35,295 bases of DNA, taken from assembly GCA_937919685.1 (NCBI GenBank), contig CALFOM010000057.1, positions 1 through 35,295 on the forward strand, written 5' to 3'. Under the pieces are notes generated by a model. It saw only the letters and a program-made list of their open reading frames with translations, was not told where the DNA came from and did no database searches. Shown piece by piece: positions 221 through 22,201 of the stretch. How positions within the stretch are numbered: the first letter of the stretch is position 1; every line of letters begins with the position of its first letter. This stretch comes from an uncultured Phycisphaera sp. GTDB lineage: Bacteria > Planctomycetota > Phycisphaerae > Phycisphaerales > SM1A02. The translations under genes and the position numbers were made by a program.

Positions 221-1615
221 TCATCCGAATATCGTTCCCAGCGCGAGGTCGCGGACGGCGGTGCAGGGGACTCGACCATCCGCCTCGTCATCAAGGTTCG
301 CCGCGGCGTCGGCGACGAGGATGCCGTCCCAACCGAGCCCTTGATCAACGCGGCCGTGCGATCCGCGGACCAAGGAGGTGTCCGTCGGAATCACGTCCAG
401 CAAGGTGCGGAATCCGAGTTTGCGGCGGATCAGTCGCGAGCCAATCGCGAGTTTCGGGAAGCGGATCGCCGGATCGACAAAAAGTTCCCGAGGGTCGTAT
501 CCCGGCTTGCGATGGATGTCGACGGTGCGCTGGTAATCGGGGGCGTGATCGTCGTCGAGCCACCAGTCGTGGCAGAACCACCGGTCGCGATTGGAAATCA
601 GGACAAGGTCTCCGGTGCGGGCATGTCCGAGGCCGGCCGCAGTGCGTTGTTCACCGACGAGCACCTGTTCAATGCCCGGCGTGGCGGCGAGGAGAGATGC
701 GATTTCGTCGTGCCGAGAGGCGCCCGTCTTTCCGAGATACACATGAGCAATCTGATGATCGGCGACCGCGAAAGCGCCACAGGCGGCCGGATCAACCATC
801 TCTCGGCCGAGCTCTTCCCGCCAGGTGAGAAGCCCCGCCTCGCGCAGTACGCGGTTTGGTGCGACGGCATCCGTGACCGGGACGACCCCGTACTCGCTCA
901 CCAGAATGGGCTCGACGCCGCGGGCGGTGTAATGCTCCAGCAGTCGGGCAACCTCGTGGTCGAGGTCTCGAAGATGTTGAGGAATATCGGCATGGTCCGG
1001 ACCAAGCTTCTGAAGTCCGTAGTCGAGGTGCGGTAGATAGACGAGGTTGATGGTCGGCGAGTGATCTCGCTCGACCCGGATCGCCGCATCTGCAATCCAT
1101 CGAGTGCTGGTGATGTCCGCACCCGGACCCCAGAACTTAAAGAGCGGAAAAGGGCCGAGCGATCTCGTGAGTCGATCGCGAAGGTCGGGAGGGTGGGTGA
1201 GGCAGTCCGGGACCTTTCGGCCATCGGCTCGGTAGATCGGTCGTGGGGTCACCATGTAGTCGCAGGTGGAGTGCATCGCATACCACCAGCAGATGTTGGC
1301 GCAAGTCACCGACTGGTCTCGTCGTCGGGCGGTCTCCCAGAGTTTCTCGGCCTGGACCAGCGGGTTGGACTGTTTCCAGAACTGAACTTCGCCGAGATCT
1401 CGATCAAGCCAGCCGTTTCCCACGATGCCGTGTTGACTGGGGGCGACGCCGGTGAGCATGCTGGATTGAACGGTCGTGGTCACTGCCGGGAGGACGGGCC
1501 GCAGCGTGCGCACCCCACCGCGATCCCGCGCAAACGAGGCGATGGCGGGCGTGTGCTTGCCGATCAATGCGGGAGAGAGACCGACCAGATCGATGATGGC
1601 GATTCGACGCGGCAT
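221..1615 (-). CDS. eboF: Alkaline-phosphatase-superfamily hydrolase, EboF-like
   Basis: This 464-residue protein belongs to the type I phosphodiesterase/nucleotide pyrophosphatase branch of the AlkP superfamily. Visible landmarks are the first metal Asp in IAIIDLVGL (Asp9), the nucleophile region PAVTTTVQSSMLTG (about 44-56, Thr as likely nucleophile) followed by PSQHGI, the LPHLDYGLQK segment (Asp and downstream His as metal ligands), VADHQIAHVYL, and the subfamily block DIHRKPGYDP. Where many family members have SDHG, this one reads SEYG. The substrate is unknown; phosphate or phosphodiester hydrolysis of a metabolite is expected. It lies 48 bases behind the second UbiA-like gene and completes the ebo set, which argues for EboF. 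The ATG start gives a family-like N-terminus, although no clear ribosome site precedes it. No signal peptide is evident. Confidence 0.8.
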   Translation of the reverse strand: MPRRIAIIDLVGLSPALIGKHTPAIASFARDRGGVRTLRPVLPAVTTTVQSSMLTGVAPSQHGIVGNGWLDRDLGEVQFWKQSNPLVQAEKLWETARRRDQSVTCANICWWYAMHSTCDYMVTPRPIYRADGRKVPDCLTHPPDLRDRLTRSLGPFPLFKFWGPGADITSTRWIADAAIRVERDHSPTINLVYLPHLDYGLQKLGPDHADIPQHLRDLDHEVARLLEHYTARGVEPILVSEYGVVPVTDAVAPNRVLREAGLLTWREELGREMVDPAACGAFAVADHQIAHVYLGKTGASRHDEIASLLAATPGIEQVLVGEQRTAAGLGHARTGDLVLISNRDRWFCHDWWLDDDHAPDYQRTVDIHRKPGYDPRELFVDPAIRFPKLAIGSRLIRRKLGFRTLLDVIPTDTSLVRGSHGRVDQGLGWDGILVADAAANLDDEADGRVPCTAVRDLALGTIFG

Positions 1616-1663
1616 GAGATGGATCGTACTCGTCCCGCGATGATCTGTTGAGTTCTTCTTCCT

Positions 1664-2725
1664 TCAGTCCTCTCGAACGGCGCCCAGCCGATCCCTCGAG
1701 AAGCCATGATTCATCGCCATGGTCAGAATGAACGCGGCGACGCAGATCGCAGCGCCCAACGTCGCGTTCGAGTCGAGTTGGTACATGATGAGTCCGGCAT
1801 CGAAGAGGGCGAGGGCGGCGAGAGATCGTGCCACGTATCGCCGAAGCAGCTCGGGGATGTCGGCGAGCCTCCGAATCGTCAGAAACAGGTGACTGCCGAG
1901 GATCAACAGTGTCGCGAGAGAGACCATGAGCATAAACATCGCCAGCGGTTGATGCCTTCCCGGCCCCGCGGTCAGCAAAACCGCGGAGAGACTGGCGGCC
2001 CCCAGAAACGGCAGCAAGAGCACGAAGGCGACACGTCCTGGCATGCCGCGGTAGAACCCCCGCGCGACCACGACTTGTCCCGCTCGGACCTCGGGCCCAC
2101 AGGGTGAACCACATTCCGGGCAACTGGTCTGATCTTCCAATACGAAATGCCCGCAGGAGGGGCAGGTCGGGACGGTCGGGTCGAATCGACCCCAGGCCAC
2201 GAGGCCGGTCGCCGTGAGATGGATGAAGAGCACCGAGAGCATGATGGACGCGATGAGAAACTCACCGCCACCTCCACCGGTGAGGCCGGAGATCGGGAGC
2301 GGGAGCGTCGCGGTGAATCCGAGGGGATAGAGAAGGACTCGTCGCAAGGAGAAGGCGAGGATCGCAGAGAGCCCCCTTCGTCGGTTCCAGAGGTCGAGGA
2401 GGAGGATCGTCGCGATCAAGGTTGCGGTGATCCCCGCCTCCAGACGAATCGACCATGCGATGGACATGCCGCCGGCGAGAAGCAGGCCGCCGGCGATCGT
2501 GAGTCCGAGGATCTTCTTCAGTTCGACCTTGGAACGAAGGATGATGAGCGGGCGTTCAGCGAGATGGAGCATGCTCGCCGCGAAGATGATCGCCGTGATC
2601 AGAACCCAGTCGACGGAGCCTTGTATTGCAGATCCAAGCAAGGAGCCCGCGAGCACGTTTGACCAGGTGACCGGAAGACATGAGATAGGACTTGGTTCGA
2701 ACCGTGGGCCCATGCCGAGGATCAT
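1664..2725 (-). CDS. Second UbiA-like membrane protein, Asp motifs lost, zinc-ribbon insert
   Basis: This 353-residue multi-pass membrane protein is a diverged tandem copy of the adjacent EboC. Its N-terminus (CLPVTWSNVLAGSLLGS) matches LPTVWTNVLVGAVLS in EboC, and its C-terminal part shares the ALFDAG block (LALFDAGLI against LTLFDAGIM). Both carry a four-Cys zinc ribbon in the middle, here CPSCG at 188-192 and CPECG at 202-206. The prenyl-diphosphate/Mg2+ loop (NDxxDxxxD) of UbiA enzymes is missing: EboC reads FNDVFDVAIDRRERPGRPIPSG (in parts), while this protein goes from LHLAERPL straight to ILRSKVELK. It is therefore probably not a prenyltransferase; a structural, regulatory or transport role beside EboC is inferred. 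The start could also be the ATG at 2713. It lies 27 bases behind eboC and 48 before eboF. Confidence 0.8.
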   Translation of the reverse strand: MILGMGPRFEPSPISCLPVTWSNVLAGSLLGSAIQGSVDWVLITAIIFAASMLHLAERPLIILRSKVELKKILGLTIAGGLLLAGGMSIAWSIRLEAGITATLIATILLLDLWNRRRGLSAILAFSLRRVLLYPLGFTATLPLPISGLTGGGGGEFLIASIMLSVLFIHLTATGLVAWGRFDPTVPTCPSCGHFVLEDQTSCPECGSPCGPEVRAGQVVVARGFYRGMPGRVAFVLLLPFLGAASLSAVLLTAGPGRHQPLAMFMLMVSLATLLILGSHLFLTIRRLADIPELLRRYVARSLAALALFDAGLIMYQLDSNATLGAAICVAAFILTMAMNHGFSRDRLGAVRED

Positions 2726-2752
2726 ACGGAGTGGCGTGCGATCGCTCTGTTG

Positions 2753-3832
2753 TCAGGTGCCCGCGATTCGCCGGTGCGACCAACGGACCAGGAAGAAGCA
2801 GCCGAGGGCGGCAAGGACCCCGAGACCCGCGGAGTACCGCGCTCCGGCGCTCGGGCTCGTCCATAAGAACGCCATGATGCCGGCGTCGAAGAGCGTGAGT
2901 ACGGCGATGGACCTCAGCACGAAACGACCGACCGCGTTCGGGTGACCCGCGAGGTGTCGGGTCGAATTCACGAGATAGGCACCGATGCCCACAAACGAAA
3001 TGAGAATCGCCCCGAGGAACCACTCCTCGGATCGTTTCCCAGTCGTCGGCATGCCGACCATCGCGGCGAGGATCGCGAGGAACCCGAAGGGCGTGACGAG
3101 GACCATGGTTCCGGTTCCGTACCAGCCTCGTCGCTTCTTGAGTCGTTCAGTCGCGATCGCCACGATGCTTTCGGCGTCGCACGCCGCGCCGCATTCGGTG
3201 CAGATGTCGGAATCCTCATCGCTCGGGTACCCGCATCGCGGACATCGCCACCGCGACTCCTCCGTGACCTCGTCGCGGGCCACCATGCTGAACGCGGCGA
3301 CGTGGATCGCGGCGACGCCGCCGACGATCACCGCAAGCAGTAAGCCGTCATCAGCAGCGACACCGCTGGGCTCATTGAGACATGCCATTCCAAGGACATA
3401 GAGTCCTCCCCGACACCCGCCCATCAGGAGGACGCTCCACGCGGTGCGGGCGTGGAGTGCGTCATAGGCGAGAAGCATCAGTCCGATGCCCGTGGCAATG
3501 CCGCCGGCGATGACGCCGTGGGTCCACGGTAGTCCGATGCCGATGGCCAGCAGGACAGTGCCGAACGCAGCCGCAGCGTTGCGGCTGATCCGCCCCGAGG
3601 GAATCGGTCGTCCCGGTCGTTCTCGTCGATCGATCGCGACGTCGAAGACGTCGTTGAAGACCATGCCGGCAAGATAGAGGCACGATCCGGCGACGATCGC
3701 GATGACGAGCCCGGGCACGATCTCAGGATTCGAGGGTCGAGCGACCGCAACCGAGAGCACGGCACCGACGAGGACGTTCGTCCAGACCGTCGGCAGATTC
3801 GAGATGCGAAGAATCTCGAGCCAGGCCCTCAT
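2753..3832 (-). CDS. eboC: UbiA-family prenyltransferase EboC with inserted zinc ribbon
   Basis: A 359-residue integral membrane protein of the UbiA superfamily, which transfers prenyl groups from prenyl diphosphates to acceptors inside the membrane. The first Asp-rich motif is intact: Asn60-Asp61-x-x-Asp64-x-x-x-Asp68, followed by ERPGRPIPSG (71-80), the usual EboC signature. YDALHA and the GGCRGGLYVLG segment follow. Unlike ordinary members near 290 residues, a hydrophilic insert holds a zinc ribbon, Cys197, Cys200, Cys211 and Cys214 (CPRCG and CTECG), in a loop after ARDEVTEES. Several further hydrophobic segments complete the fold. Its ATG overlaps the eboE stop (ATGA), indicating translational coupling. 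In the ebo pathway it is expected to prenylate or handle the metabolite made with EboD; the substrate is unknown. Confidence 0.87.
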   Translation of the reverse strand: MRAWLEILRISNLPTVWTNVLVGAVLSVAVARPSNPEIVPGLVIAIVAGSCLYLAGMVFNDVFDVAIDRRERPGRPIPSGRISRNAAAAFGTVLLAIGIGLPWTHGVIAGGIATGIGLMLLAYDALHARTAWSVLLMGGCRGGLYVLGMACLNEPSGVAADDGLLLAVIVGGVAAIHVAAFSMVARDEVTEESRWRCPRCGYPSDEDSDICTECGAACDAESIVAIATERLKKRRGWYGTGTMVLVTPFGFLAILAAMVGMPTTGKRSEEWFLGAILISFVGIGAYLVNSTRHLAGHPNAVGRFVLRSIAVLTLFDAGIMAFLWTSPSAGARYSAGLGVLAALGCFFLVRWSHRRIAGT

Positions 3833-5040
3833 GGCTCAATTCCGCCGCGGATGGTCTCGATCGTCCCGCGGAGCCATCGTAATTCCTCAGCGATGCCGGC
3901 GGCGAGCCCATCGTCACCGGCGTACAGGCAGTTTGGAAGAACATCCCACGCGTACGTCTCGACTTCGAGCATCGGAAGCGGAAGATCTTTCGGCAATGCC
4001 GCGAGGCAACGTTCGATCTCGGTTTGAGTGCTCGACCAGCCGTTCATGCCCTGCGTGAAGATCGGAACGTGGAAGTGCGTGCGCCAGAGTCCGGTGGGCA
4101 CCTGATGCTCCGCTCGATTCGCAATCGCGATCGGCAGATCTTCGAAGAACTCGGCGTCGAAGTTCGGCTCGAGTCCGGTTCTGATCATCGTTTGATGAAG
4201 GTATCGGGGCTCGACAAAGCCGCGATACGCGTCGAGCGTTCTCGCTCGCTCCGCTTCGTCATCGATCGCATCGAAGTCGATTTCAATCGCGGAGGAGATC
4301 TGGATTTTCCCCACTTCGATCCCATGCTCCCGGTAGGTGCGCAATGCCGCAGTCTGCGGTTCAAACATCACGGCCGCATGACACACGTCATGGCAGACCC
4401 GGAGGTATCGGCGGTGATCGACGTCGTCACTGGGGCGGAACGCCTGCTCGAAGAGATCGACAACATCTTGGCTCACGTCAAGCACGCACCCGGGCTCGGG
4501 TTCGAGATCGAGATGCACGCAAATGCCCGTCCGGTCCTCGATCGACCGCAATGCCTTCGCGGCTTCGACGAGTTGTGCGGCGGCCATGCCAACTGAGCAA
4601 CCGCATCCTTCGTTGGTGAACGACGTTCGCCAGCCGATGGGAAGCGTCGAGATGGACGCCTCGGTCGTGCCATCCGGAAGGAGATCGACCAGCAGATTTG
4701 CAAGGTCAATGGTGTAGGCGAGTCGCTTCGGGTCGGCCCAGTGTGGTTCGTAGACCGCGTGCTTGACGACTTCAGCATGGAAGTCGCCGTAGGGGAATCC
4801 ATTGAACGTCAGGACGTGCAGACCTTTGGTCAGCAGGCTGTCCCGGAGGGCGGGTGCGCCGTCAATTTCACGAAGTTCTCTAGCCGCGGAGGCAGAGAGC
4901 CAGAGTCCGAGGCCGATCGGGGCCTCCGGATCCTCAATCGTGGCGGTGAGTTCACGGACTCGCGGCGCGAAGCGATCGAGATTCGCCTCGGTTTCCGCGA
5001 GCGTTCGGCCGGCGTGGACGTTGGTGCAGTAGGTCAGCAT
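3829..5040 (-). CDS. eboE: Metabolite-traffic protein EboE (TIM-barrel, xylose-isomerase-like)
   Basis: About 403 residues from the ATG at 5040, whose N-terminus MLTYCTNVHAGRTLAET is the family-typical beginning; the longer open frame upstream overlaps eboB and has no family character. It resembles the xylose isomerase-like TIM-barrel superfamily used by EboE. Recognisable blocks are GLGLWLSASAARELRE, LTFNGFPYGDFHAEVVK, the acidic/His strand ends CVHLDLEPEPGC and RVCHDVCHAAVMFE, KIQISSAIEIDF, and HFHVPIF near the end. The His/Glu/Asp residues at strand ends suggest a metal site, but the reaction is not established. It begins 10 bases after eboB and its stop overlaps the eboC start by four bases, so it sits inside the tightly coupled core of the operon. 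Confidence 0.87.
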   Translation of the reverse strand: MLTYCTNVHAGRTLAETEANLDRFAPRVRELTATIEDPEAPIGLGLWLSASAARELREIDGAPALRDSLLTKGLHVLTFNGFPYGDFHAEVVKHAVYEPHWADPKRLAYTIDLANLLVDLLPDGTTEASISTLPIGWRTSFTNEGCGCSVGMAAAQLVEAAKALRSIEDRTGICVHLDLEPEPGCVLDVSQDVVDLFEQAFRPSDDVDHRRYLRVCHDVCHAAVMFEPQTAALRTYREHGIEVGKIQISSAIEIDFDAIDDEAERARTLDAYRGFVEPRYLHQTMIRTGLEPNFDAEFFEDLPIAIANRAEHQVPTGLWRTHFHVPIFTQGMNGWSSTQTEIERCLAALPKDLPLPMLEVETYAWDVLPNCLYAGDDGLAAGIAEELRWLRGTIETIRGGIEP

Positions 5041-5050
5041 GCCCGTGGTT

Positions 5051-5866
5051 TCATCGGGTTGGTTGAACGTCGGTTCGGAACTTGCCCGTCTGAGAAAGGA
5101 ACTCAAGCGGGTTATCGAAGGAAACTTTTCGGATGGTGGCTTCGAGATGGCCACGTCGGCGCATCTCATCCCGGCACTTGGGGACGGCCAGCGGATCGCT
5201 CGGACCCCAGTCGCCGGCCGAGTTGATCCAGAGTCGATCGGTCCCGTGCATCTCAAAGATGTCGGCGGCTCGTTGCGGGGTGCATTTGGTATCCGGATAG
5301 AGGGTCAGGCCCGCCCAATAGCCACGGTCGAGGACTTCACGCACGGTGTGCTCTTCGACGTGGTCGATCAGCACCCGGTTCGGATCGAGCACGCCGTGGT
5401 TCTTGATCGCGTCCATGATGAGACGCGTCCCTTTTCGCTTGTCTTCCAAGTGTGGGGTGTGAACCAGCACCATCTGATCGTGATCGGCCGCGAGCTGGAG
5501 GTGGGCTTCGAAAATTTCGAGTTCGTTGCGACTGTTCTTGTTTAGGCCGATCTCGCCGATCCCAAGCACGCTCTCGCATTTGAGAAACTCCGGGATGATC
5601 TCGAGGACTTCGCGGGCGAAGACCGGATCTTCGGCTTCCTTGGGATTGATGCAGAGCCAAGTGTGATGGGCGATGCCGTATTGCGCGGCTCGCTTCGGTT
5701 CGGTCTCCGTAAGCACCGAGAAGTAATCGTGGAAACCCTGCGGACTCGAACGGTCGTAGCCCGCCCAGAACGCGGGCTCGGTGATCGCCACACAGCCAGC
5801 GAGGGCCATTCGTTGGTAGTCGTCGGTGGTCCGACTCACCATGTGGACGTGGGGATCGATGTACAT
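5051..5866 (-). CDS. eboB: TatD-family metal-dependent hydrolase EboB
   Basis: A 271-residue TatD-like amidohydrolase-fold protein. The ATG at 5866 gives MYIDPHVHM, placing the metal-binding HxH at residues 6-8, right at the N-terminus as in the family; the open frame reaches 16 codons further upstream but that part has no family match. Further ligands lie in GIGEIGL (Glu), VLVHTPHLE (His), LIDHVEEH (His) and [16 protein letters not shown] (Asp). Members hydrolyse phosphodiesters or amides; the ebo substrate is unknown. The start overlaps the stop of the small upstream gene by one base (TGATG), and eboE follows after 10 bases. Confidence 0.88.
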
Positions 5867-6204
5867 CAGCCGTTCTCCCCGTCTCGAGCGGATGCGGGCT
5901 TGAAGCCGTCCCACGCACCGGTGGCACCCTTCATCGGGGCCGCGGCGATGGGTTCGGTACTCGGGTCGCTCATCAGATCGAGGATCCGCTTTGCTCGCTC
6001 CGGCTCGCCGTCGAGCAGCAGGGCAATCGCGCCTCGCAGACTGGTGAGTCGAAAATCTTCTTTGGAACCGACCGCGTCGGGATTGGCGCGATCGACACGA
6101 TCGAGGAACGCGGCGAGGTCGAGAACCTTCGCCCGGTGTTCCAGAAAATACCGATCAACGACAGCGCTTCGGGATAGAGGGAGCGGTGGAGGACTACTGG
6201 GCAT
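5866..6204 (-). CDS. Small protein at the eboA position, family not certain
   Basis: A 112-residue protein read from the ATG at 6204; a TTG two codons upstream is a less likely start. It has a Pro-rich N-terminus, then a predicted helical core ([31 protein letters not shown]), a second helix with [22 protein letters not shown], and a polar tail. No signal peptide, membrane span or catalytic motif is apparent. Its stop overlaps the eboB start (TGATG), so it is translated as part of the ebo operon. EboA proteins of cyanobacteria are, from memory, roughly twice as long; this may be a diverged short EboA or an unrelated replacement. I do not assign a function. Confidence 0.7.
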
Positions 6205-6366
6205 GTCCAAGAGTCTACCGCCCTCGCCCCGATCGACGATTAAGGAGCGATGATGGGATGACCAACCGCCCTGCGAGGGCAGGATCGGAAGGGAGTGTTC
6301 ATTAAAGGAAGACGGCGGCGAACAGGTGTCTGGCTCGGATGCGGTGCAGGACGCCCGGCTCGTCGC
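6205..6366. other. Noncoding gap inside the ebo operon
   Basis: The 162 bases between eboD and the small gene contain only a short hairpin (GCCCT GCG AGGGC near 6270-6282) without a T-run. I see no credible reading frame and no terminator. It may hold an internal promoter or a processing site, but nothing in it decides this. Confidence 0.5.
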
Positions 6367-7527
6367 TCAGTCAACGATCGAGTGGAGTACCGCGATCGAT
6401 TCACGGACGCGATCGAGTTCCATCTTGTGAACTTCCGCGCCAAGTCCGATTTTATCGAGCAGGGTGATGGTCAGGCGTCCACCAAGATGTTCGCGAAACT
6501 CCTCGAGACCGGCAACTAGTCGGTCATCGCCGAGCAGCGGATGGCTGACCGGGAGCCCGAGCCGCAACATAACGTCGATGATCCGGTCGAATTCCGCCTT
6601 GCTCAGGCGTCCGACGAGATTCGAGTAGGCGGAATCGAGGCAGATGCCGATCGCGACCGCCTCACCATGGGACAGGTTGAATCCACTCATCGACTCGAGT
6701 CGATGCGCCGACCAGTGGCCGAAGTCGAGGGGACGCGCTTCGAGTCGTTCGAAGGGGTCTCCTCCGGATGCGATGTGCTCAAGATGCATCTTCGCGCAGC
6801 GTCGGATGATCGGGCGGGCCGCATCCAGATCACGTTCTCGAATGCGATCGGCGGCATCGGAGATGGACTCAAAAAAGGCGGCATCCTGAAGGCAGGCGAT
6901 CTTCACCGCTTCGCTGAATCCTTCACGCCAGCGGCGAACATCCAGCGATTCGAGCATCGCTTCGTCACAGACGACGGCGGTGGGCACGTCGAAGGTGCCG
7001 ACGAAGTTCTTCTTTTCGAAACGATTGACACCGGTCTTCACGCCGATCGCCGCATCGAGCTGAGCCAGCACGGTGCTCGCGAATCGGACGACTCTCACGC
7101 CGCGATGCGCGGTACTGGCCGCGAATCCTGCGGCGTCGAGGACTGCACCGCCGCCGAAAATCGCGACATAGGACCGACGGTCGATGCGATGCTTTTCGAT
7201 CGCGGCCAGAATCCGGTCAATAATCGCGGGATCGTTTTTGCACGTTTCGCCACCCGGAACCAGGAGTACCTCTCGAAGTTCCGGAAGATTCGACGCCGCG
7301 AATCGCGTGGTGATCGCGTCTTTGATTTCTGGGCGGGCGTCCGCGAGCCCTTGATCGACGACCGCGATCACTCCCGATTGAGGTGCATCGTCGTCTTCAC
7401 GTTCGAACACCGCATCAAGGAGCGGGTTCTCCGGGTTCAATACGTCACGATCGAACAGCAGCCGATGGGTGAACGGTACGCCGAAGTCGTTGCGAATCTC
7501 GTGGGCGATGGTATGCGTGGGGGACAT
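6367..7527 (-). CDS. eboD: EboD, 3-dehydroquinate-synthase-like sugar phosphate cyclase
   Basis: A 386-residue NAD- and zinc-dependent cyclase of the dehydroquinate synthase/2-epi-5-epi-valiolone synthase superfamily. Diagnostic blocks are VPGGETCKND, the NAD-binding IFGGGAVLDAAGFAAS, AHRGVRVVRF, KNFVGTFDVP, WREGFSEAVKIA, and the metal site DFGHWSAHRLE followed by LSHGEAVAIG. The tryptophan in GHWSAHRLE, where dehydroquinate synthases read GHTxGHA, places it with sugar-phosphate cyclases and EboD rather than AroB. It should cyclise a sugar phosphate to make the ring of the ebo metabolite; the exact substrate (for example sedoheptulose 7-phosphate) cannot be read from sequence. It is the first gene of the ebo operon, preceded by a 230-base region with inverted repeats and followed by 162 noncoding bases. 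Confidence 0.88.
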   Translation of the reverse strand: MSPTHTIAHEIRNDFGVPFTHRLLFDRDVLNPENPLLDAVFEREDDDAPQSGVIAVVDQGLADARPEIKDAITTRFAASNLPELREVLLVPGGETCKNDPAIIDRILAAIEKHRIDRRSYVAIFGGGAVLDAAGFAASTAHRGVRVVRFASTVLAQLDAAIGVKTGVNRFEKKNFVGTFDVPTAVVCDEAMLESLDVRRWREGFSEAVKIACLQDAAFFESISDAADRIRERDLDAARPIIRRCAKMHLEHIASGGDPFERLEARPLDFGHWSAHRLESMSGFNLSHGEAVAIGICLDSAYSNLVGRLSKAEFDRIIDVMLRLGLPVSHPLLGDDRLVAGLEEFREHLGGRLTITLLDKIGLGAEVHKMELDRVRESIAVLHSIVD

Positions 7528-19016: not shown

Positions 19017-19177
19017 GTCTGGAAGCCTATCACGGAGTGTCGTTTCGTCGGTATCGGACCCTCGCTTGCGACGATCCAGCTACGAATTCTCATTCTTGTT
19101 TTCCCACGATCATATGGCCCGGTACTCTTCAAGTATTCGATTCAAATCTACTCATGTACTCCACGCTTGGTCGCCCC

Positions 19178-22100
19178 ATGACTGCACCAGAAAAACTCAT
19201 CGCGAATGATCAAAAAGTCTTAGTCATCGGCTGGGATGCCGCCGACTGGCGGGTGATTCGCCCCATGATCGCCGAAGGCAAAATGCCGAACCTGCAGAAG
19301 ATGATGGAAGAAGGCGTTCATGGCAATAACTCGACGCTCAATCCGGTCCTGAGCCCGATGCTTTGGACGTCAATGAGCACGGGGAAACGACCTTACAAGC
19401 ACGGTATCCATGGATTCAGCGAGCCGACTCCCGACGGAAAGAGCATTCGTCCGATCTCCAACGTCAATCGCAAGTCGAAGGCGATCTGGAACATGCTGAA
19501 CCAGGTTGGCAAGAAGTGCAACGTCGTGGGTTGGTGGCCGTCGCATCCGGCCGAACCGATCGACGGAGTGATGGTCAGCAACTTCTACCAGACGGCGCGA
19601 AACATCAAGAATGCGGACATCGATCCCGAAATCGGAAAGCCACGCCCCGACACGGTGGGCTGGAAAGCCGACCAATGGGAGATGCCCGCCGGAACGGTGC
19701 ACCCGTCCCGTCTTGCGAAGAGCCTCCAGGAATTTCGTTTCCACCCTCTAGAACTCGATGCGGAACATGTCGGTCCGTTCATTCCGAAATTTTCGGAAAT
19801 CGACCAAGAAAAAGATGAACGTCTCGTCGGTTTTGCCAAGACCCTTTCGGACACCGTGAGCATCCATGGAGCTGCCACGGCGTTGATGCAACTCGAGCCT
19901 TGGGACTTCATGGCGGTCTACTACGACGGGATCGACCACTTTGGCCATGGTTTCATGAAGTACCACCCGCCGCGGCAGTCTTGGATCAAGGAAGAGGACT
20001 TTGAAATCTACAGCGGCGTGGTCGAAGGTGGCTACCGCTTCCACGACATGATGCTCGGCGCGTTGCTCCATCTGGCTGGCGAAGAAACCACGGTTATTCT
20101 CGTGTCGGATCACGGTTTTCATCCGGACCACTTACGACCCGAGCACATTCCAGTCGAGCCCGCGGGCCCTGCGATTGAGCATCGGCCGTACGGCATTTTC
20201 GTCGCCAAGGGACCGGGCATCAAGAAGAACGAAACCATCTCGGCCGCGAGTGTCCTTGACCTGGCCCCGACCGTACTCTCCATCTTCGGCCTGCCGGTCG
20301 GCGAGGACATGGATGGAAAACCACTCTCCACGATCTTCGAAGAGACGCCAGAGATTGCAACGGTGCCATCGTGGGACGATGTCGACGGTCCACACCCCGA
20401 CGGCAGGCATCCAGACGGGATGCACATCGACAGTGTGCAGAGCGCCGAGGCGATGAAACAACTCGTCGAACTCGGATACATCGAGGAGCCGAACGAGGAT
20501 ACGGACGAGGCGGTGCGAGAGACCACTCGAGAACTCAGTTACAACCTTGCTCAGGCATATATGGACGGAGGTCGGGTCCAGGAGGGGGCCGTGATCCTGG
20601 AGGAAATCTGGAGCGACTGGCCGAGGGAGAACCGATTCGGTCTCAATCTGATTGCATGTCTTGGCGCCCTTGGAAAAGTGGAAGAACGTGGGATGGCCAT
20701 TGCGACACTTGCGAACAACATTCGCAACGGCGTCGAATGGGCGCTCGAAGAGTTGGAGCGAATCCGACCAGAAGCCACGGAATACGGCATCTCACTGCCC
20801 AAGCCCAAGCCCAAGCCCAGCCCGGAATCGCCGGACGAGTCCGAATTGAACGACGGTGATGTCGAAATGGCGGCACCGGACGAATCCACGGAGGGCGAGT
20901 CCAAGAAGAAGGAAGCGCCCAAGAAGCTGACGTTCCAAATTCGAAAGATCCTCAGCCATCTCCATCCGATGGGTGGAACGCTTCAGTGGCTCTCGATGCA
21001 GCAGTCGCTGGCCACCGGTGACCATGAAAGTGCTCGAAAGGTGCTCGAAAGCATTGCGAGCGCGGATAAGAACGTCGATCGGCCGGATCTCCTGGTGATG
21101 ATGGCGGATTCGTGGTTCACCATCGGCGACCTCGATGCCGCCCACGATCTCTATCTCCGGGCCCTCACGCTCGACGACGAGAGTAGTAGCGCCAACTTGG
21201 GTCTTGCTCGGGTCGCAGTCGCCAAGGAAGACTGGGAACAGGGAATCGAACGTGCCCTCGCGACCACGGAACTGATTTTCGCGACTCCATTAGCGCATTT
21301 TCTTCTCGCCCAGTCCTTGGAAGGAATGGGTGATGATGAGCACGCCAAGATTGCCTACGGCGTCACGATTCGTTTGGCCCCGGGTTTGGTCGACGCCCGT
21401 GAGCGCTTCATCCTCTTACTTGATCGTCTGGGCCTTGAAGCCGAGGTGAAACTGCATCGAGAGGCTCTGGAAGAGATACAGGATTCGAGAGCGATCGATA
21501 TCGCGATCGAGAAAGACGACGTCGATCGGGTGGCTGAGGAGATCCTTCATTCCAGAATAAGCCGCCGCGAACAGCTCGATTTCACCGGCAATTCAACGAT
21601 CGCCGCAACGCAAAGCCCCGTGGTCGTGGTGAGCGGACTGCCTCGATCGGGGACGTCGATGATGATGCAGATGCTCGAGAAGGCTGGGATCCCCGCATTC
21701 GCGGACCAGCAGCGCGAAGCGGACGAGGATAATCCGCGCGGTTACTTCGAGCACGAGAAGAGCATTCAGATCGCCAGAGACGTCTCGTGGGTTCCCGAGG
21801 CCCGAGGCCATGCGGTGAAGATCGTCGCGCAGCTCCTGAATCACCTGCCTCGAGGTGAACGCTATCGAGTCGTTTTTATGGATCGTGATCTGCGTGAGAC
21901 TGTTCGAAGCCAGCGGGTGATGCTTGATCGTATGGGTCGTCAGGGTGGTCGCCTCACCGACGCACGAATGATGTCTACGCTCGACGCTCAGGTGGCGCAG
22001 ATTGAGCGTTTGCTTGCTCGCCGACCGGATATCGAAGCGATCTTTGTTGATTACGCCTCGGTACTGGCGGATCCGAAGGCGGAAGCGAGTCGGATATCGA

Positions 22101-22201
22101 GCTTCCTCGGTGTCGATTCGGATACGGATGCCATGGCCGCGGGGGTCGATGGGTCTCTTCGTCGCCAGAGTGTCCAAAAACCAGAATCGGATTCGGAATG
22201 A
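19178..22201 (+). CDS. AlkP-type hydrolase / TPR / sulfotransferase fusion protein
   Basis: A protein of about 1,007 residues with three parts. Residues 12-420 are an alkaline phosphatase-superfamily domain: VLVIGWDAADW (Asp20), LSPMLWTSMSTG (Thr64, likely nucleophile) with KHGIHGF, VYYDGIDHFGHG and LVSDHGFHPDH supply the metal ligands. A middle part (about 440-810) has TPR-like helical repeats interrupted by a Lys/Pro then acidic linker (PKPKPKPSPESPDESELNDG). Residues 810-1000 form a sulfotransferase domain: VVSGLPRSGTSMMMQML is the 5'-phosphosulfate loop of PAPS-dependent enzymes, ADEDNPRGYFEHEKS follows, and VVFMDRDLRETVRSQ matches the 3'-phosphate region. No signal peptide is seen. It may sulfate and hydrolyse polysaccharide or protein-linked groups. 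The start at 19178 is preferred; ATG 19154 is possible. The next gene overlaps by four bases. Confidence 0.88.
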   Translation: MTAPEKLIANDQKVLVIGWDAADWRVIRPMIAEGKMPNLQKMMEEGVHGNNSTLNPVLSPMLWTSMSTGKRPYKHGIHGFSEPTPDGKSIRPISNVNRKSKAIWNMLNQVGKKCNVVGWWPSHPAEPIDGVMVSNFYQTARNIKNADIDPEIGKPRPDTVGWKADQWEMPAGTVHPSRLAKSLQEFRFHPLELDAEHVGPFIPKFSEIDQEKDERLVGFAKTLSDTVSIHGAATALMQLEPWDFMAVYYDGIDHFGHGFMKYHPPRQSWIKEEDFEIYSGVVEGGYRFHDMMLGALLHLAGEETTVILVSDHGFHPDHLRPEHIPVEPAGPAIEHRPYGIFVAKGPGIKKNETISAASVLDLAPTVLSIFGLPVGEDMDGKPLSTIFEETPEIATVPSWDDVDGPHPDGRHPDGMHIDSVQSAEAMKQLVELGYIEEPNEDTDEAVRETTRELSYNLAQAYMDGGRVQEGAVILEEIWSDWPRENRFGLNLIACLGALGKVEERGMAIATLANNIRNGVEWALEELERIRPEATEYGISLPKPKPKPSPESPDESELNDGDVEMAAPDESTEGESKKKEAPKKLTFQIRKILSHLHPMGGTLQWLSMQQSLATGDHESARKVLESIASADKNVDRPDLLVMMADSWFTIGDLDAAHDLYLRALTLDDESSSANLGLARVAVAKEDWEQGIERALATTELIFATPLAHFLLAQSLEGMGDDEHAKIAYGVTIRLAPGLVDARERFILLLDRLGLEAEVKLHREALEEIQDSRAIDIAIEKDDVDRVAEEILHSRISRREQLDFTGNSTIAATQSPVVVVSGLPRSGTSMMMQMLEKAGIPAFADQQREADEDNPRGYFEHEKSIQIARDVSWVPEARGHAVKIVAQLLNHLPRGERYRVVFMDRDLRETVRSQRVMLDRMGRQGGRLTDARMMSTLDAQVAQIERLLARRPDIEAIFVDYASVLADPKAEASRISSFLGVDSDTDAMAAGVDGSLRRQSVQKPESDSE

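Follow-up and report, generated by a model that had tools for sequence, protein, structure and literature searches.

The ebo operon of this uncultured Phycisphaera sp. raises the question of why a second UbiA-like protein is encoded directly beside the prenyltransferase EboC, and what such a protein could do without the catalytic residues of its neighbour. This second protein is called P1 here (1664-2725, minus strand), and the window is the whole stretch of DNA that was analysed, 35,295 nucleotides long and a single contig of a 3.45 Mb draft assembly. The features are:

6367-7527, minus strand: EboD, an AroB-like cyclase, by family match
5866-6210, minus strand: EboA-like short protein, assigned from its position and its conservation in relatives
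5051-5872, minus strand: EboB, a TatD-like hydrolase, by family match
3829-5076, minus strand: EboE, a TIM-barrel protein (NF035939, 399.7 bits, cut-off 250)
2753-3832, minus strand: EboC, the prenyltransferase (UbiA type) encoded in the ebo operon; it has NDVFDVAID at 3629-3655 and a zinc ribbon at 3191-3244, in the same loop as that of P1
1664-2725, minus strand: P1, the putative EboC-like UbiA pseudoenzyme, 353 aa, with predicted UbiA fold and zinc ribbon
2522-2566, minus strand: what is left in P1 (residues 54-68) of the TM2-TM3 loop; the EboC counterpart reads NDVFDVAIDRRERPGRPIPSG
2168-2206, minus strand: start of the P1 TM6-TM7 loop, residues 174-186, G-[FL]-VAWGRFDPT
2099-2167, minus strand: P1 zinc ribbon, residues 187-209, with C188, C191, C202 and C205
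221-1615, minus strand: EboF, type I phosphodiesterase / alkaline phosphatase-like, the gene after P1

Along the minus strand the operon reads EboD, EboA, EboB, EboE, EboC, P1 and EboF, with gaps of only 27 bases between EboC and P1 and 48 bases between P1 and EboF. Both gaps were free of terminator-like sites in a scan of the window, which is weak evidence as the scan returned 9 sites versus 6.0 (sd 2.2) in shuffled sequences; a terminator-like hairpin of 14 pairs was found at 7696-7663, between EboD and the gene upstream, and two weak overlapping sites lie within P1 itself (2166-2148). The EboC of the window matched Pfam UbiA with 77.2 bits (cut-off 34.2) and the NF035940 model with 139.7 bits, below the curated cut-off of 250, while P1 had no match at E up to 1 to either Pfam UbiA or the NF035940 EboC model (cut-off 250 bits), and its family matches were to zinc-ribbon-type models only, every one below its cut-off. 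No family match above chance was obtained for the EboA-like protein. In the window (221-7527) and in three further loci (L087, L096 and L130) the ebo genes are clustered as one operon; a survey from 2016 reports them as unclustered in the three planctomycetes that it included (PMC5133447).

The initial annotation had given P1 an EboC ancestry, and this holds up well: P1 and the EboC of the window are 31% identical across 326 aa (E 1e-22), their profiles match over 320 columns (E 5e-29), and 47 bits remain when the zinc ribbons are masked. In a separate run with the composition correction switched off the pair scored 63.9 bits versus a shuffle maximum of 26.9, with 188 of the 200 shuffles giving any score. 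A chance similarity is ruled out by the combination of alignment, profile match, masking and shuffles, and the sequences indicate that P1 is a paralogue of the neighbouring EboC. P1 and EboC (NF035940; UbiA superfamily PF01040) share descent, predicted fold and operon, and the same loop holds a zinc ribbon in the nearest EboCs as well, but P1 is without the first Asp motif, the RPxRPIPSG signature, the catalytic tyrosine and the A-R-x-E sequence of EboC.

Structure prediction of P1 alone returned the UbiA fold that had been claimed for it, given EboC rows in the alignment. The model made from an alignment including the 37 EboC rows reached a pLDDT of 87.2 and a pTM of 0.85, and the model made from P1 and its five orthologues alone had a pLDDT of 45.8 and was unusable; since the high-quality model needed the EboC rows, it is not independent proof of the fold. 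The best twelve Foldseek rows were all from the UbiA superfamily (E 0.005 to 0.04, with no match at E < 0.001), at modest TM-scores of 0.36-0.51 by query length. With VIA-align the best eleven entries were again all of the UbiA superfamily (Z 13.6-18.1, 226-249 residues), the fourth best being the complex of UBIAD1 and HMG-CoA reductase (8djk), and soluble prenyl synthases ranked next at Z 11 and below, where values below about 13 can be common for any helical bundle. A search of the P1 profile against solved structures gave mainly zinc-ribbon proteins and no UbiA entry. In the model the zinc ribbon (residues 187-209) lies between TM6 and TM7, the place taken in AfUbiA by the long cytoplasmic loop described as following the second motif (PMC4106721). 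Based on this model, P1 is predicted to have the UbiA fold.

For the conservation analysis we aligned six P1 rows (the G003 row is cut at a contig end) with 37 EboC rows; the source set before selection held 48 frames, five of P1 and 43 of EboC. Left out were the EboC frames of L058, L066, L069 and L075 (251-269 aa or a shorter copy), those of L077 and L079 (400 and 472 aa) and the EboC fragment of G002. A conservation of 90% or more across the 37 EboC rows is reached by 28 columns, and P1 retains nine of these by majority rule across the five full-length P1 rows, i.e. P14, G23, D64, G80, R141, Y145, A185, L314 and D316 (EboC numbering), of which D64 and G80 fall in an arbitrarily aligned loop and are absent from the P1 copy of the window. 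Residues N60, D61, D68, Y123, H127 and E188 are present in 37/37 EboC rows and lost in 6/6 P1 rows, as are, in all six P1 rows, the further EboC residues R9, N12, T15, Y53, G56, R72 and C140. As the initial annotation had stated for the window, the NDxxDxxxD loop and the RPxRPIPSG signature are gone, and this extends to all six P1 copies: the first Asp-rich motif is found in 37/37 EboC and 0/6 P1 rows, and the remnant of the TM2-TM3 loop is shortened, with the motif gone and conservation lost. An Arg-Pro in P1 of the window aligns on R75-P76, but the rest of RPxRPIPSG does not follow. The tyrosine in TM4, which is Tyr in all 37 EboC rows, is replaced by Asp (D111) in all six P1 rows. With regard to the second Asp motif, the earlier description needs to be restricted to the first: the canonical DxxxD after TM6 is absent from P1, which has VAWGRFDPT there, but is absent from EboC too, which has A-R-x-E instead (A185 and E188 in 37/37 rows), so that EboC itself has only the first motif.

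The functional weight of these positions comes from other members of the family. EcMenA is reported to lose function when the equivalents of the motif 1 or motif 2 residues or of the TM4 tyrosine are changed, and this tyrosine, present in 97% of a set of over 10,000 sequences, is given as the residue that the family conserves best; GPP binding by AfUbiA is abolished when N68 or D72 (motif 1), R22 or K146 is replaced by alanine, and alanine at D198 or D202 (motif 2) raises the KD by 45-fold or 21-fold, respectively (all PMC4106721). A profile alignment pairs EboC Y123 with Tyr125 of MjDGGGPS, and Y123 is presumably equivalent to AfUbiA Y139, with EboC R9 and H127 probably corresponding to AfUbiA R22 and K146. 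From the conservation pattern, P1 appears to be a pseudoenzyme, the site for donor and Mg2+ being gone from all copies found, and no relative was found with intact Asp motifs in its P1 (6/6 are without them).

The zinc ribbon has fared differently from the catalytic site. Its CxxC-CxxC pattern is present in 6/6 P1 rows, in agreement with the ribbon noted earlier in the window copy. Among the EboC rows 16 of 37 show a zinc-ribbon pattern in the loop after TM6 and the other 21 do not, and the 2016 description presents EboC without an additional conserved domain (PMC5133447). The best conserved segment of P1 is the G-[FL]-VAWGRFDPT sequence, which is 85% identical between P1 lineages and differs from the S-x-x-A-R-x-E of EboC; the zinc ribbon comes next, and the loop replacing the catalytic loop is the least conserved part, at 10%. 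Among the membrane helices TM1 (68%), TM7 (60%) and TM9a (61%) are above the protein mean of roughly 50%, and TM2 (38%), TM4 (42%) and TM8 (35%) are poorly conserved.

A direct comparison with EboC is possible at matched divergence, as P1 of the window shares 49-53% identity with the remaining P1s, much as the EboC of G007 does with the remaining EboCs of the genus (49-52%), and dN is 0.41-0.49 across both sets of pairs. In the catalytic loop (EboC 53-82) identical columns number 4/22 for P1 vs 23/30 for EboC (p 5e-5; for P1 a further eight columns are gaps in both sequences, and a column with a gap in one sequence only is scored as changed), whereas in the cap loop (P1 174-209) they number 28/36 vs 18/36 (p 0.03). 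Two other representative pairs both yield 3/22 vs 22/30 for the catalytic loop (p 2e-5) and 29/36 vs 17/36 for the cap loop (p 0.006); the pairs are not mutually independent, and the regions were picked after viewing the alignment. These figures point to a constraint which in P1 has moved from the catalytic loop to the cap loop with the zinc ribbon.

Selection was estimated with a simple counting method. For P1, dN/dS was 0.18-0.31 in the 10 pairs without G000 (the genome of the window) and 0.40-0.51 in the five pairs with it, similar to EboC, for which the five pairs involving G007 gave 0.36-0.44 and the other 10 pairs 0.18-0.37, and both are well above EboF (0.05-0.13), EboE (0.04-0.17) and EboB (0.01-0.04). 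In each of the 10 full-length P1 pairs 0/500 bootstraps reached a dN/dS of 1. All six P1 frames are open; the longest has 353 codons and the shortest, truncated where its contig ends, 223. P1 therefore does not present as a lone decayed gene, open as it is in six genomes with dN/dS below 1; plain decay is contradicted by the dN/dS values, the bootstraps and the shifted constraint, and P1 is under purifying selection.

The distribution of P1 is narrow. Eight genomes represent the genus of the window, and an open P1 is present in six of these (G000, G001, G002, G003, G005 and G006), always adjoining EboC (6/6, the G002 EboC being cut at the contig start). G007 contains a P1 remnant with one stop, in which only both gene ends are left, 82 bases apart, matching P1 of the window at residues 10-55 (65%) and 316-352 (57%); in G004 (68% complete) neither P1 nor EboE was found. 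Counted over the seven genomes of the genus with EboC, P1 is open in six and a relic in one. In the genome of the window and 100 relatives EboE was found in 68/101, with 66 above the curated cut-off, and P1 in six; 17 of the 101 genomes gave some match in the P1 search, which beyond the six P1s were, as far as they were examined, the G007 relic, EboCs and short stretches consisting mostly of zinc ribbon. A P1 profile search of 181 family genomes gave no further P1 among the matches examined: the strong profile matches in G133 and G134 (genus g38), candidates for P1 orthologues, are their EboCs, and the weak matches examined were zinc ribbons (G158, G155 and G152) or EboCs (G044, G035 and G220). 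No P1 other than that of the window was present in 392 phylum-sampled genomes at E 1e-8, and in a one-genome-per-species collection the P1 profile matched five contigs, apparently those of P1-bearing genomes of the genus, and a single-protein query no relatives. Together, the searches of the 101 genomes, the family and the phylum found no P1 outside the genus of the window. A pseudoenzyme that always accompanies EboC is not borne out, as the pairing is seen in one genus only and P1 is wrecked in one of the seven EboC-bearing genomes of that genus.

EboF is directly 3' of EboC in 10 loci from other genera (G133, G044, G033, G013, G009, G057, G055, G067, G079 and G220), and so P1 occupies a place where these have no such gene. 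No EboF was found in the stretch examined of G035, and G134 has a long sulfatase-like frame between EboC and EboF. This very long frame (L131 333-4493, minus strand) directly follows EboC at the place expected for EboF; another very long frame directly follows P1 in G002 at the equivalent place (L088 1642-6417, plus strand, open at the contig end), and by eye both resemble two sulfatases. A scan for tandem EboC pairs in a class sample of 397 genomes (five candidates scored per genome, with matches to E about 7e-19) gave two separate open frames only in G000 and G006 among the matches listed, the other neighbouring rows being pieces of one frame.

In a tree of 24 rows all P1s group together (100/100), and the stem leading to them is long, at 1.97 changes per column; P1 together with the EboCs of the genus of the window and of genus g38 makes up one side of a branch supported at 100/99. 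The nearest EboC to P1 is that of G133, with weak support (67/86), and a within-genus duplication is not rejected by the tree test (p-AU 0.14). The tree places the duplication only inside the EboC clade of the two genera; of the tandem duplication suggested by the initial annotation the origin from an EboC stands, while the genus itself is one possible place for the event.

The DNA around P1 has a mixed history. Compared with G007, the window is 91-94% identical over most of EboE and 88-96% over most of EboF, whereas the stretch between about 4083 and 3214 shares 92-94% with G003 and G006, its identity to G007 dropping to 57-59% inside EboC; from 3213 to 2652 the identity is 72-80% to G001, G003, G005 and G006 and 55-64% to G007. 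The region from about 4083 to 2652 has the appearance of a recombination tract, in which EboC is like that of another lineage of the genus, with EboE and EboF like G007. The simplest reading of these identities is that much of the EboC of the window was imported from another lineage and P1 was not. An EboC that was replaced while P1 stayed counts against a tightly matched pair, and since G007 keeps EboC with its P1 wrecked, EboC can manage alone there.

The explanation that we prefer, and hold with about as much belief as doubt, is that P1 is a dead EboC paralogue which the Ebo system retains as a membrane subunit without catalysis, most likely in a hetero-oligomer with EboC. The roles suggested in the initial annotation, heterodimer partner or carrier, would both be plausible. 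P1 is probably a non-catalytic partner rather than an enzyme; its place in an EboC or Ebo membrane complex is the step which we infer. P1 would be a subunit first of EboC and second of other Ebo proteins, its cap and membrane bundle binding EboC or another membrane Ebo protein, and it may tune the substrate choice or stability of EboC or the hand-over of the prenylated product, much as soluble prenyl diphosphate synthases are tuned by their non-catalytic small subunits. The main evidence against a subunit is the apparent import of EboC together with the loss of P1 in G007; in addition, most of the ebo operons seen do without P1 and the pairing is confined to one genus, P1 evolves fast, and P1 and EboC are both less constrained than EboB, EboE and EboF. 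A gene kept by some species and lost in a close relative offers a natural comparison for the capabilities of EboC alone.

A pseudoenzyme beside an active paralogue is an already-known kind of arrangement. The EboC homologue Ubi-297 is reported to farnesylate quinoline acids in vitro (PMC9235831). For soluble prenyl synthases, non-catalytic regulators of catalytic subunits are known: the small subunit of mint GPPS is described as lacking the DDXXD motif and acting on the catalytic subunit (PMC7839719), and both this protein and HexA of M. luteus tune a catalytic subunit as proposed for P1, but they are soluble and their complexes were shown experimentally, whereas P1 has a predicted membrane UbiA fold and its complex is inferred. 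Two membrane aromatic prenyltransferases of hop, HlPT1 and HlPT2, are reported as one complex (PMC8430942), but both are catalytic and P1 is without a catalytic site. UBIAD1, with the UbiA fold, is reported to regulate HMG-CoA reductase by binding it (PMC9314443, PMC7069719), but is also an active enzyme with a partner that is not a paralogue, unlike EboC, the proposed partner of P1. In trypanosome AdoMetDC a dead paralogue is described as activating its sister (PMC5201418). A full-text search of open-licence literature found no paper pairing 'UbiA' with 'pseudoenzyme', and among the matches listed we recognised no UbiA-barrel pseudoenzyme in titles and abstract starts of that literature; one candidate for a motif-less UbiA enzyme was set aside, as the enzymes in that report are active and their first Asp motif is called conserved (PMC12172877).

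The strongest of the alternatives, possible but rather doubtful, is that P1 does not work on EboC and instead gives the soluble proteins EboA, EboB, EboE and EboF a platform at the membrane on which to dock, with the ribbon binding these and the bundle serving only as anchor. The ribbon-bearing cap loop as best conserved part of P1, the position of the gene between EboC and EboF, and a published proposal of a membrane-anchored EboC-A-B complex (PMC6282210) all speak for such a platform, but the conservation of TM1, TM7 and TM9a exceeds what an anchor needs, and Ebo proteins occur without P1 in G007 and in other genera. It is unlikely that P1 retains the UbiA cavity as a pocket in which a lipid-linked intermediate (the prenylated Ebo product or its acceptor) is bound and then handed over for export, with no catalysis involved: the poor conservation of TM2, TM4 and TM8 between P1 lineages argues against a carrier, and ligand binding is demonstrated for none of the retained residues, although the UbiA cavity is described as opening into the membrane (PMC4106721) and the conserved R141 and Y145 of EboC are kept as R129 and Y133 in 6/6 P1s. 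We give little credence to P1 as an enzyme with a new UbiA-fold chemistry based on D111, R116, R117, D182 or zinc; P1 does have invariant polar residues of its own, among them D111 in the place of the catalytic tyrosine in all six copies, but the donor and Mg2+ site residues of EboC are gone, and the loop which bore them is now the least conserved. The least probable reading, that of a slowly dying duplicate without present function which G007 has already lost, can draw on the G007 relic, the restriction to one genus and the fast evolution (dN/dS up to 0.51 with the copy of the window), but sits badly with six open frames, dN/dS well below 1 in 15/15 pairs and conservation concentrated in one region.

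Returning to P1 as a non-catalytic subunit, a bolder version, which we put forward tentatively and rather doubt, is that of a UbiA barrel free of chemistry, in which the cap docks on EboC or its partners and the prenylated Ebo intermediate is kept in the empty cavity until its transfer. If true, such a stripped barrel would give the UbiA superfamily a pseudoenzyme partner of its own.

Elsewhere in the window, a frame of 1054 aa on the plus strand (19037-22201) appears by eye to combine a phosphodiesterase-like part, tetratricopeptide-like repeats and a sulfotransferase-like end.
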